21,028 nt of DNA, taken from IMG/VR virus record IMGVR_UViG_3300000956_000059, positions 1 to 21,028 of that record. One strand, given 5' to 3'. A model generated the notes under the pieces. The model did no database searches. It saw only the letters and a program-made list of their open reading frames with translations, and was not told the origin of the DNA. The position numbers and the translations under genes are program-made. Numbering within the stretch: position 1 is the first letter of the stretch; each line of letters opens with the position of its first letter. Origin of the DNA: a virus. Of this stretch, positions 13,624-16,728 are shown one piece after another.

Positions 13624-16600
13624 GTGGACAGTGGAGCCCGCAAGGCGCTGCGACGCAATCCTTTCGCGGCGAATCGCGACGGTGCGGGATTCGATCGCAT
13701 AGCGCTGCCCAACCTCGCTGACCGTCTGAACGGTCGGGGGCAGATGCTCCTGCAGGAGGAGTGGGCGCAAAAGTCGGTCGGGAGCTTCTTCGCCAACAGC
13801 GGCTTCTTCCTGCGCCCGCAGGCCGGCGGCGCAGAGGGAGTGACCGACGCGTTCCTCGAATCGTGGGTCGTCTACGTCTGCGCGACGCTGCTCGCGGACA
13901 AGGTCGCATCGATCCCGATCCAGGTGTGGAACGGCATCGGCGACGACGCGGCGGAGGTGTCCGAGAAGGATCCTGTCGTCCAGCGGCTCTACCGCCCCAA
14001 CCGCGACACGACATGGAGCCAGTTCGCGGCGCGCGGAATCATCCACCGCCGCCTGTCGGGCGAGGACATCTGGTTCCTCATGGATCTCGCGGGCCAGCCG
14101 AAGGTCCAGGCGGGAGCGACGGCGTTCGACCTACCCGACCAGATCGTCAACGTCACAGGCAGTGCGGTCGAGGACGAGCGCGACCCCAGCACCGGCCGCA
14201 TCCTGCGCTGGAAGTACGCGGGCAGCGGCGGAAGCGTCGTTCCCTGGTTCCCCTCCTCGTCGATCGTCCACTTCGCCGACTACGACCCGAACGATCCGCA
14301 GCGGGGCATCGGTGCTGCCGAGGCTGCTGCGCGACAGATCGCGATCGGGTTTCAGGCCGAGCGCTACCAGGAAGCGGTCATGCGCTCGGGCGGCCTGGGC
14401 GGGTTCCTCGTCTCGAAGGAGCGCATGGGGCCGGAGCACGAGGAGGCGCTCCAGGCTCGCATGGACGACGCCGCGAAGGATCCCAACGCGGCGAACCGGC
14501 TGAAGCTCCTCACCGGCGAGTGGGACGTGAAGCCCGGGATCATCGCCCCGAAAGACATGGCGGGGCTCGAGTTCCTCAAGTGGTCGCGCAACGTGATCGC
14601 GAGCCTCATGCGCGTGCCGCTGCTCTGCATCGGCGTCACCGAGGACTCGACGTACGCGAACCTCGACACCGCCTGGCGCGAGTTCTGGTCGGGCGTGCGC
14701 GACTACCTCAACGGCGTCGCCGAGGTGATGAACTCGGCCTTCTTCCCGAAGCTCAAGGGTCCGGGCGCGAAGTACCGCTGTTCGTTCGACTTCTCGAAGG
14801 TCAAGTACCTGCGCGACATCAGCGGCGAGGACTTCGATCGCGCGCTCAAGGCTGCCGCGGCAGGAATCGGCATCTCGTTCAACGCTGCGTCCGAGGCGCT
14901 GAAGATCGAGATCGATCCCGTCGAGGGCGGTGATCGCCAGCTCGTGAACGGGATGCTCGTCGAGGCGGAAGCGTTCGACGCAGAGAGCGAAGAGCCCGAA
15001 GAGGATCCGCCGACCGATCCCGACAAAGCCGCCAAGACGGTCCGCGCCTACCGCCACCCCGCGCTGACCGACGCCAAGGTCCGCGCGCAGTACCACGCCG
15101 ACTGGCTGATCCGCGCCGGGGTCATGCGCCACGAGCGGCGCCTGGCGCTGACGATCAAGCGCTACCTCGCCGCCTACGAACGCGCGCAGATCGCGCGGCT
15201 CAAGCTGTTCGCGGAGAAGGGTCCGGAGGGCGTAGAGCCGAATCGGCCCCTGCCGGCGAAGTCGGTCTCTGGTGCCGTGCAGAAGATCAGCGGCGCCGAC
15301 ATTGAGCGCTGGCTGCTGCTCTACAAGCGTGAGTGGGAAGAGCGCCTCGGCGTAGCGACCGCACGCACGATCGCGAGCGCCTTCGAAACCGCCGCCGCTG
15401 ACGCCGCACGCGAACTCGGCGCGCTTTCGATCGACGGATCCGACCCGCGCGTCCTCGCCTTCCTGAAGGACCAAGAGATCAAGCTCGTCGAGGGCGTCAC
15501 GAGCACGCTCGCGCAGCGCGTCAAGGTGCAGGTGCTCGACGTGCTCCAGGGCTCCACGAACACCGCGGAGCTGCAATCTGCCGTTCGTGAGATGTTGCCA
15601 GAACTCACGGACAAGCTCCGCGGTTCCTTCTCGACGAAGGATCAGCGCGCGCTGGTGATCGCCCGCACAGAGACAGCGCACGCATCGAACGGCGCGCGCT
15701 TCATGCAGTTCGAAGACGCCGGCGTCACGAAGACGCAGTGGATCACCGCGGGAGACGAGCACGTGCGCGATAGCCACAAGGCAGTCGACGGGGACGTGCA
15801 GCCGCTCGGCGTGGAGTTCCGCAACGGACTGCGCTGGCCGAGCGACCCCGAAGGACCTGCGGGCGAAGTCATCAACTGCTTGCTCCCAGGATCTCTCGTC
15901 CAGGGCCGAATCGTTGCGGGCCTAAAATCCGTCTACGCGGGGCCGGCGTGGGAGATCAAAACGCTTGGGGGTCAGCGGCTTCGCGTCACGCCCAATCATC
16001 CCGTACTGACCGATGAGGGCTGGCGTCCTGCTCATGCGCTGACAAAAGGCGACCGCCTGATCTGCGCAGCCGGCAATGTCGATCGTCTCGCGGTGAAGCT
16101 GGACGTAGATCATCAGCACGGACCAGCCCGCGTCGAGGATGTTTTCGACGCGCTCGCGGCGAATGGACGAGTGGTTTCGACGGTGGTTGGCGGACTGGAT
16201 CTCCATGGCGACGCGCGCTTCGGGGACGGCGAGATCCACGTTGTAGGTGTCGATCGCAAACTGCGGAAACGGCGCGACTCCCCGCTCAGCCATGGCCGCC
16301 GCGATCTCGGCCTCGAACTTTCCGACGCGAGCGCAAGCCCGCTGAAAAGCAACAGCGCGGGCAACGATTCGCTCGTGGGAGTCCTTCTGGCCCCGGCGCT
16401 TGGTGTGCGCGGCGGCCGTTTGAAGCGCGCGCCCAACCGCATCCATCTGACTCCACTTCAACCGCTCTGCATCGGATCGGCCGCGAATCTGCACGCCCGC
16501 GCGAGCGAGGCGGCGAAGGAGAAGTGGTCTGCTGAGCCGCGTCTCGTCCGCGAGCTTCTTCAGGCTGGTTCCGGCCTCGTAGCGATTGACGAGGTCAGCG

Positions 16601-16728
16601 AGGTTCGAGAGCTGCATTTCCGCGGACACGTGTACGACCTCCAGAGTGAGACGGGCTGGATTATCGCAGACGGAATCGCTTCCGGGAACTGCCGTTGCAC
16701 CGCCGTCGCCGTCGACCCCGAGGAATAG
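13624..16728 (+). CDS. Portal-MuF fusion protein interrupted by an intein
   Basis: The precursor is 1034 aa. Residues ~75-410 form an HK97-family portal (ESWVVYVCATLLADKVASIP, then WSQFAARGIIHRRLSGEDIW, IVHFADYDPNDPQRGIGAAE and WSRNVIASLMRVPLLCIGV), the ring through which DNA is packaged. A linker leads to a MuF/SPP1-gp7-type head morphogenesis domain (about 555-763 of the mature form) with ALVIARTETAHASN and the C-terminal motif IN-CRCTAVAV. An intein (residues 752-1022) splits that motif between IN and CRC. Splicing would give a 763-aa protein with a 12-residue C-extein. GTG 13624 has GGAAG upstream; ATG 13744 is a possible later start. Portal and MuF are usually separate neighbouring genes; here they are one reading frame. 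The protease gene starts two bases after the stop. Confidence 0.9.
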   Translation: MDSGARKALRRNPFAANRDGAGFDRIALPNLADRLNGRGQMLLQEEWAQKSVGSFFANSGFFLRPQAGGAEGVTDAFLESWVVYVCATLLADKVASIPIQVWNGIGDDAAEVSEKDPVVQRLYRPNRDTTWSQFAARGIIHRRLSGEDIWFLMDLAGQPKVQAGATAFDLPDQIVNVTGSAVEDERDPSTGRILRWKYAGSGGSVVPWFPSSSIVHFADYDPNDPQRGIGAAEAAARQIAIGFQAERYQEAVMRSGGLGGFLVSKERMGPEHEEALQARMDDAAKDPNAANRLKLLTGEWDVKPGIIAPKDMAGLEFLKWSRNVIASLMRVPLLCIGVTEDSTYANLDTAWREFWSGVRDYLNGVAEVMNSAFFPKLKGPGAKYRCSFDFSKVKYLRDISGEDFDRALKAAAAGIGISFNAASEALKIEIDPVEGGDRQLVNGMLVEAEAFDAESEEPEEDPPTDPDKAAKTVRAYRHPALTDAKVRAQYHADWLIRAGVMRHERRLALTIKRYLAAYERAQIARLKLFAEKGPEGVEPNRPLPAKSVSGAVQKISGADIERWLLLYKREWEERLGVATARTIASAFETAAADAARELGALSIDGSDPRVLAFLKDQEIKLVEGVTSTLAQRVKVQVLDVLQGSTNTAELQSAVREMLPELTDKLRGSFSTKDQRALVIARTETAHASNGARFMQFEDAGVTKTQWITAGDEHVRDSHKAVDGDVQPLGVEFRNGLRWPSDPEGPAGEVINCLLPGSLVQGRIVAGLKSVYAGPAWEIKTLGGQRLRVTPNHPVLTDEGWRPAHALTKGDRLICAAGNVDRLAVKLDVDHQHGPARVEDVFDALAANGRVVSTVVGGLDLHGDARFGDGEIHVVGVDRKLRKRRDSPLSHGRRDLGLELSDASASPLKSNSAGNDSLVGVLLAPALGVRGGRLKRAPNRIHLTPLQPLCIGSAANLHARASEAAKEKWSAEPRLVRELLQAGSGLVAIDEVSEVRELHFRGHVYDLQSETGWIIADGIASGNCRCTAVAVDPEE
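15922..16629 (-). CDS. Putative homing endonuclease nested antisense in the intein
   Basis: A 235-aa reverse-strand protein from GTG (16629-16627), with GGAGGT 7 bases upstream; M5 is an internal alternative. Residues ~10-52 form a helix-turn-helix typical of homing nucleases (YEAGTSLKKLADETRLSR, LLLRRLARAGVQIRGRSDA). Residues ~103-176 match the Vsr-like/DUF559-type PD-(D/E)xK pattern: FEAEI (E106/E108), PQFAIDTYNVDLAV (D132), VAMEIQSANH (E143, H149), RVENILDAGWSVLMIYV. The tail PALIGQYGMIGRD resembles the GQY-x-V-I-x-x-D/G ending of that family. It likely cuts intein-free MuF alleles to spread the intein. The frame is codon-aligned with the sense intein. Long antisense shadows are common here, so the case rests on motifs, Shine-Dalgarno and codon bias, not on length. 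Activity is inferred. Confidence 0.75.
   Translation of the reverse strand: MSAEMQLSNLADLVNRYEAGTSLKKLADETRLSRPLLLRRLARAGVQIRGRSDAERLKWSQMDAVGRALQTAAAHTKRRGQKDSHERIVARAVAFQRACARVGKFEAEIAAAMAERGVAPFPQFAIDTYNVDLAVPEARVAMEIQSANHRRNHSSIRRERVENILDAGWSVLMIYVQLHRETIDIAGCADQAVAFCQRMSRTPALIGQYGMIGRDAKPLTPKRFDLPRRPRVDGF
16637..16642 (-). promoter_or_regulatory. Shine-Dalgarno of the antisense endonuclease gene
   Basis: On the reverse strand the sequence is GGAGGT, seven bases before the GTG at 16629. On the sense strand the same bases encode the VYDLQ part of intein block F, so one stretch serves as both splicing-domain code and ribosome site. This supports GTG 16629 as the start. Confidence 0.7.
16660..16688 (-). 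promoter_or_regulatory. Candidate promoter for the antisense endonuclease gene
   Basis: On the reverse strand GATAAT (16665 to 16660) matches five of six bases of a sigma-70 -10 box. TTCCCG (16688 to 16683), 17 bases upstream, is a weak -35 match. Transcription would start near 16653, leaving a ~24-nt leader that contains the GGAGGT. The element lies within the codons of blocks F and G. It is a short motif in GC-rich DNA and not proof. Confidence 0.35.

Follow-up and report, generated by a model that had tools for sequence, protein, structure and literature searches.

A phage intein with a probable homing endonuclease gene on its complementary strand

Introduction

In the inteins described so far, the endonuclease either forms an in-frame domain or has been lost, and a review describes intein endonucleases as translated fused to the intein, in the same strand and frame (PMC3943268). 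An intein in a 21,028-base virus record (IMGVR_UViG_3300000956_000059; hereafter the window, with positions numbered on the full stretch) raises the question of whether a homing endonuclease can instead be encoded on the other strand of the intein's own DNA. The intein (15877..16689, plus strand) interrupts the MuF part of a portal-MuF fusion gene (13624..16728, plus strand), and most of the same DNA read in reverse encodes a 235-residue protein (15922..16629, minus strand, stop codon included). An earlier note, made from the sequence alone, interpreted this protein as an antisense homing endonuclease.

Here, we argue that the locus is very probably a mobile intein with a separately expressed homing endonuclease gene on its complementary strand. 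The observations that carry this argument are two open, codon-aligned frames that are conserved across a large phage family with hundreds of members, opposite selection on the intein's core and Hint segments, a nuclease fold, expression signals embedded in splicing blocks, and an exact but polymorphic insertion. The earlier interpretation is thereby supported, with expression, nuclease activity, homing, splicing and any advantage of the layout being what we infer.

Results

Two open frames in one intein

The sense element has all of the marks of a cis-splicing intein (Cys1, VTPNHP with its TPNH, GHVYDL, Asn271|Cys, and MuF resuming as CRC). It spans 271 residues from Cys1 to Asn271 at VIN|CRC, as supported by a Pfam Intein_splicing match (residues 19-258, E=1.7e-7), the modelled Hint ends and the insertion site of relatives. 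Blocks A, B, F and G, which the earlier note had placed at the ends of the insertion, are all readable. The N-terminal Hint segment (15877..16086, plus strand), defined by alignment, model and substitutions mostly at sense position 3, starts with block A and includes block B, VTPNHPVLTDEGW (about 15985-16023, plus strand). The C-terminal Hint segment (16567..16689, plus strand) contains block F, GHVYDLQ (16624-16644), and ends with block G at IASGN. Judged by these motifs and the model, the element is a cis-splicing intein of the Hint superfamily and would be expected to splice.

The sense core between these segments (16252..16566, plus strand) lies opposite the nuclease gene, is predicted to be disordered and, from its position-1 substitutions, tolerates amino acid change in the sense frame. 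An AlphaFold2 model of the sense intein (50 sequences) has a mean predicted local distance difference test (pLDDT) score of 69.6, with values of 92-98 for the Hint ends and 39-52 for most of residues 126-230. A Pfam profile search matched no nuclease profile to the core. Being predicted disordered and lacking such a profile, the core does not fit a bifunctional large intein, in which the endonuclease domain lies within the Hint polypeptide.

The frame structure is as the earlier note described. The sense strand is open for 271 codons within a 1034-residue open reading frame (ORF), the reverse ORF (16629-15922) gives 235 residues from a GTG at the place indicated, and the two frames are codon-aligned. 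The note's hand counts of guanine-cytosine (GC) content at codon positions 1 and 3 are also exact, at 78% and 73% for 16141-16440 and 55% and 95% for portal codons 13861-13920. Because the window is GC-rich, openness of its frames alone proves little: with the antisense protein recoded under host codon usage, 1.3 sense stops are expected and the probability of none is 0.26. Across 63 family members, 5.7 sense stops are expected per member, for a combined log10 P of -181, and AT-rich members contain none where 11-17 are expected under ordinary codon usage for the antisense protein.

The antisense product resembles homing nucleases

The antisense protein matches the Pfam families MTES_1575 (E=4.4e-6) and HTH_58 (E=3.7e-5). 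The MTES_1575 (PF18741) score of the window protein is 27.1 bits, below the curated gathering cut-off of 38.2, and 46 of 53 relatives also match this family. A PDB sequence search with the single protein returned nothing useful; it was the family profile that matched the nuclease-like structure 3hrl (E=3.2e-7). An AlphaFold2 model of the protein (53 sequences, all from the window or the scanned loci) has a mean pLDDT of 94.0 and a predicted template modelling score of 0.79, and its best solved match in Foldseek is the homing endonuclease I-Bth0305I (PDB 3r3p, probability 0.99). VIA-align of residues 100-222 gave Z scores of 9.6 for Vsr (1cw0), 9.3 for I-Bth0305I (3r3p) and 8.9 for the endonuclease-like 3hrl, while residues 3-49 matched helix-turn-helix (HTH) domains.

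These matches suggest a two-domain architecture. A predicted HTH DNA-binding domain occupies residues 11-56 (16462..16599, minus strand; HTH_58, with model helices at 10-18, 23-30 and 34-43) and is present in two or more copies in some relatives. A predicted Vsr/EDxHD-like nuclease domain, defined by MTES_1575, VIA-align and conservation, occupies residues 100-201 (16027..16332, minus strand). Among the 53 relatives, E106 is conserved in 51, D132 in 53, E143 in 53 and R160 in 52, so that the VIA-align scores and the acidic residues E106, D132 and E143 together indicate a Vsr/EDxHD-type core fold. The E and D of the E-D-x-H-D signature are kept, a His follows E143 within 12 residues in 46/53 relatives, and an HD dipeptide occurs in 2/53. 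The claim of an HTH plus Vsr-like/DUF559 product is thus borne out by MTES_1575/DUF559 and HTH profiles and by a modelled fold that matches Vsr and I-Bth0305I; with homology and fold both present, the note's reading stands. Matches of the antisense protein to 2ivn, helicase and glycoside hydrolase profiles were dismissed as chance-level, and the conserved-looking antisense motif YGVIRG was discounted, since it is block B TPNHP read on the other strand.

Selection acts on opposite strands in the core and Hint segments

In the codon-aligned arrangement, sense position 1 corresponds to antisense position 3 and the reverse. Differences per codon at sense positions 1/2/3, taken over 15 close pairs, are 0.219/0.166/0.461 in exteins, 0.122/0.058/0.214 in Hint-N and 0.095/0.043/0.220 in Hint-C, versus 0.263/0.065/0.133 and 0.380/0.122/0.190 in two core segments. 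In ten disjoint pairs, substitutions at positions 1 and 3 number 95:168 in Hint-N and 644:337 in the core (Fisher P=1e-17), with Hint-N leaning toward position 3 in 10/10 pairs and the core toward position 1 in 10/10. The core is therefore the antisense gene's territory, where the sense strand mainly stays open. The ratio of nonsynonymous to synonymous rates (dN/dS) for the antisense frame is about 0.16-0.21 in the core, which is purifying selection separate from the sense frame, as for an antisense overlapping gene. Analysed in both frames, as the earlier note had proposed, the sense core varies freely and the reverse frame is kept.

The arrangement is widespread and the intein probably mobile

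To sample the family, 2.9 million viral contigs were scanned four times by alignment, each time with a different bait. The bait peptide of the first scan was the complement of block B and thus biased toward inteins; its placement of all relatives within inteins was circular for this reason, and rescans with other baits followed. In the nuclease-motif scan, 84/84 loci face an uninterrupted sense frame that has a Hint motif; four of these are from a host-genome collection, which yielded no others. The sense-intein scan found the antisense nuclease in 80/80 loci (79 without stops). A scan with just the 66-residue N-terminal Hint, which is blind to the core, found it in 79/80 phage loci, the remaining locus being cut by a contig end; the antisense frame is intact in 77 of the 80 and has one stop in 2. 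The reverse frame is thus not routinely broken in intein homologues; routine breakage beside a conserved sense core would have counted against the earlier note. No free-standing homologue of the HTH-nuclease subfamily was found outside inteins in the nuclease-motif, sense-intein and N-Hint scans. By tblastn, the products of both strands co-occur in phages of Pseudomonas, Cronobacter, Vibrio, Gordonia, Idiomarinaceae, Aggregatibacter, Salmonella, Klebsiella and Escherichia.

The exteins of the family are MuF-like, VG15 or minor capsid proteins, and the insertion site N|C-x-C is common to relatives, with the Kagunavirus fEg-Eco06 as an exception. In this Escherichia phage (L102), the dual-strand intein lies at a second MuF site, DSRTSTT|CRARDG, and the nuclease family has therefore changed target at least once. 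Two other members depart from the common form. The intein of Rhodococcus phage REQ3 (L099) apparently starts with Ala rather than Cys1, and an N-terminal HTH seems to be missing from its antisense ORF. In Salmonella phage GE_vB_HIL (L104, a record flagged as unverified), the intein's sense frame is disrupted some 130 residues in, through sequencing error or decay.

The insertion itself is polymorphic. When the flanks of the Pseudomonas intein site are joined, they match many P. aeruginosa phages without a gap or an intein at 95-98% identity; phi297, JBD44, Haboob and BUCT566 are among these intein-less phages, and vB_Pae_* phages carry the intein. The same presence/absence polymorphism is seen in Gordonia phages (empty alleles up to 93% identity) and in Salmonella/Escherichia phages. 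The element is thus present or absent at one exact MuF site in near-identical alleles, as homing would predict. In the comparison of Cronobacter ES2 with L051 (L004/L051), the exteins differ by about 25% and the intein by 6.7%, which indicates horizontal movement.

Expression signals lie within the splicing blocks

The antisense start codon sits in sense block F. A Shine-Dalgarno GGAGG (16638..16642, minus strand) lies 8 nucleotides before the GTG, within the block F codons D-L-Q, and an extended -10-like TGCGATAAT (16660..16668, minus strand, read 16668-16660) lies in the block G region opposite the sense codons IIA. Across the family, codons that yield such signals exceed expectation: the block F His is CAT, the reverse complement of ATG, in 45/55 members versus 21.8 expected from extein codon usage, and the block F Leu is CTC, which gives GGAG or CGAG, in 43/51 versus 13.2 expected (43/53 versus 13.4 in a separate tally). 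Controls are unbiased, both in block B (His 20/61 versus 25.0 expected, Leu 15/49 versus 13.3) and over all N-Hint Leu codons (74 versus 73.9). The extended -10 (TGnTATAAT) score opposite block G averages 8.58 in the family versus 7.38 in synonymous recodings (z about 15), and the excess is confined to the antisense strand of the F-G region. A terminator scan was negative.

A second antisense case in Gordonia phages

In the Gordonia phages Nordenberg, Lennon, Sitar and Barsten, the usual MuF site is occupied by a different intein, whose complementary strand contains a 196-residue ORF (AAFIDGEG...). This ORF matches the PHROG 5046 phage endonuclease family (2.2e-15; labelled HNH there) and a cyanophage endonuclease (2e-6) that is itself weak on LAGLIDADG profiles (0.003), and it has a weak match to I-MsoI (0.0013). 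From these matches, we tentatively place it in a LAGLIDADG-like class. That it is antisense-coded is, unlike its class, not tentative: between Nordenberg and Barsten (L105, L350), differences at sense positions 1/2/3 number 30/1/7 in the ORF's first 110 codons, versus 15/9/61 in the extein. With an unrelated LAGLIDADG-like nuclease antisense in this other intein, the layout probably originated twice, apparently independently.

Discussion

Alternative explanations

Several observations weigh against a mobile intein with an antisense endonuclease. The last D of the EDxHD motif is unconserved in the antisense family. No -35 box was found in the window, where a sigma-70 two-hexamer scan was negative, and the -10 is a family-wide statistical signal that was tested after one example had been seen and that some members show weakly or not at all. 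A few members, namely L014, L031, L035 and L085 (His to Pro) and L008, have GPVYD or TPVYT in block F and so no start codon there, and their antisense gene must start elsewhere. Finally, the loci of one scan share phylogeny and are not independent. One alternative is that the antisense nuclease is real and serves a role other than intein homing, such as superinfection exclusion directed at competing phage or host DNA, or DNA-binding regulation. Vsr-fold nucleases do serve many roles, MTES_1575 and DUF559 are not in themselves families of homing endonucleases, and the activity and target of the antisense protein are putative. We nevertheless consider such a role unlikely, given that the polymorphic insertion falls exactly at one codon boundary in one gene family with empty alleles 95-98% identical, that the scans recovered no copy outside inteins, that the HTH plus nuclease layout has a homing endonuclease as its best fold match, and that an unrelated LAGLIDADG-like homing-type nuclease substitutes for it in another intein at the same site.

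It is far less probable that the sense core is a functional intein domain, with the antisense ORF arising as a side effect of codon composition. Conservation is apparent in sense motifs such as DFHGD, it carries over between codon-aligned frames on the two strands, and openness is cheap in GC-rich DNA, as the window's own probability illustrates. The core's substitutions nonetheless favour position 1 in every disjoint pair, its pLDDT of 39-52 compares with 94 for the antisense protein, the antisense frame matches unrelated nuclease profiles and folds, and the AT-rich members lack the 11-17 expected stops; DFHGD was rejected as a sign of a functional core, being the nuclease motif xAVEV read on the other strand. 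Similarly hard to sustain is the view that the antisense gene once encoded an active endonuclease and is now decaying. The homing-cycle model predicts decay after fixation, and a few copies (L041, L204, L270 and L318) contain a stop, but about 97-99% of copies are intact, the antisense dN/dS in the core is low, the acidic residues are near-invariant, and empty alleles are common, so that the homing cycle can run.

A model for antisense-encoded mobility

If the endonuclease is expressed on its own from the antisense strand, the mobile intein would operate as follows. The portal-MuF precursor would be translated through the intein, whose Hint halves would fold together and splice at N|C to restore MuF, with the sense core of about 105 residues serving as a disordered spacer whose sole need is to stay open. 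On the other strand, the extended -10 in block G and the Shine-Dalgarno and start codon in block F would drive expression of the 235-residue HTH plus nuclease protein. During co-infection, this protein would most likely cleave MuF alleles that lack the intein, close to the N|C-x-C codons, and repair by recombination would then copy the intein and the antisense gene together. Because it has its own expression signals, the endonuclease would be independent of the timing of the late structural gene and untethered from the spliced product, and this uncoupling may explain the layout.

We further think it likely, at slightly lower confidence than for the window itself, that antisense endonucleases are a general and recurrent design of mobile inteins, in which two proteins are made from opposite strands, signals lie in blocks G and F, and Vsr-fold and LAGLIDADG-like versions have independent origins. 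If so, some phage inteins filed as endonuclease-less would be fully mobile. An antisense endonuclease is invisible to standard annotation, and inteins called degenerate or mini are thus reopened, the Methylococcus prophage F intein of 2004 among them. To our knowledge, the overlap is among the longest and best-supported codon-aligned antisense overlaps, at about 235 codons kept across phages of many hosts. It offers a natural test bed for the evolution of two proteins on one DNA, in which the splicing motifs also hold the signals by which the opposite gene is transcribed and translated.

Relation to known systems

Like large (bifunctional) inteins such as PI-SceI (reviewed in PMC3943268 and PMC6801210), the element combines a Hint domain in a host protein, endonuclease-linked mobility and a conserved host-gene site; unlike in these inteins, the endonuclease is separate, on the complementary strand, and has its own start signals. 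Splicing elements with an antisense homing endonuclease gene are known among the group I introns of nuclear ribosomal DNA (PMC9548176). Those elements are RNA introns and hence imply no protein-coding constraint on the other strand, whereas in our model of the intein the same codons are translated from either strand.

With I-Bth0305I (3r3p), the antisense protein shares a Vsr-like nuclease fold and attached DNA-binding motifs, although I-Bth0305I is a group I intron endonuclease and the protein here is antisense in a cis-splicing intein, with the xHD part not strictly kept. EDxHD or Vsr-like homing endonucleases have reportedly been found with split inteins (Dassa et al. in 2009). MTES_1575 and DUF559 (PF18741, PF04480) share the nuclease-core profile, for which the window protein lies below the curated cut-off, but the HTH-nuclease subfamily was seen solely in inteins in these scans.

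Earlier MuF/F inteins come from a Methylococcus Mu-like prophage (PMC517821), Escherichia vKMB36 (PMC11162368), Salmonella UPWr_S (PMC8425127) and Mu-like AB09 (PMC7468147). They likewise reside in a minor head or F protein, in the same or related phage groups, and the accessible portions of these papers mention no antisense gene. For the Methylococcus intein, the authors recognised no endonuclease and doubted that it was mobile (PMC517821). One of our loci (L248, 2501-3442) is probably this very intein, from the F protein of the Methylococcus capsulatus Mu-like prophage and described in 2004 as endonuclease-less, and it contains the antisense nuclease (hidden Markov model E=8e-56). We found no report of antisense endonucleases in inteins in the open-access literature, a scope that leaves bioRxiv and most subscription journals outside and is not proof of absence.

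Host gene and annotation

The precursor that contains the intein matches Phage_portal (residues 82-397, E=2.7e-36) and Phage_Mu_F (residues 633-726, E=1.7e-8) in Pfam. Portal and MuF are joined in one gene here, and Phage_portal is also matched by 7/96 related exteins. Public records usually have one hypothetical or head protein annotated across the intein region, and the Salmonella phage PK1 record labels the reverse ORFs as hypothetical proteins. In MT677934 and OQ507916, the intein-bearing MuF gene is labelled NAD+--asparagine ADP-ribosyltransferase, which looks like a misannotation.

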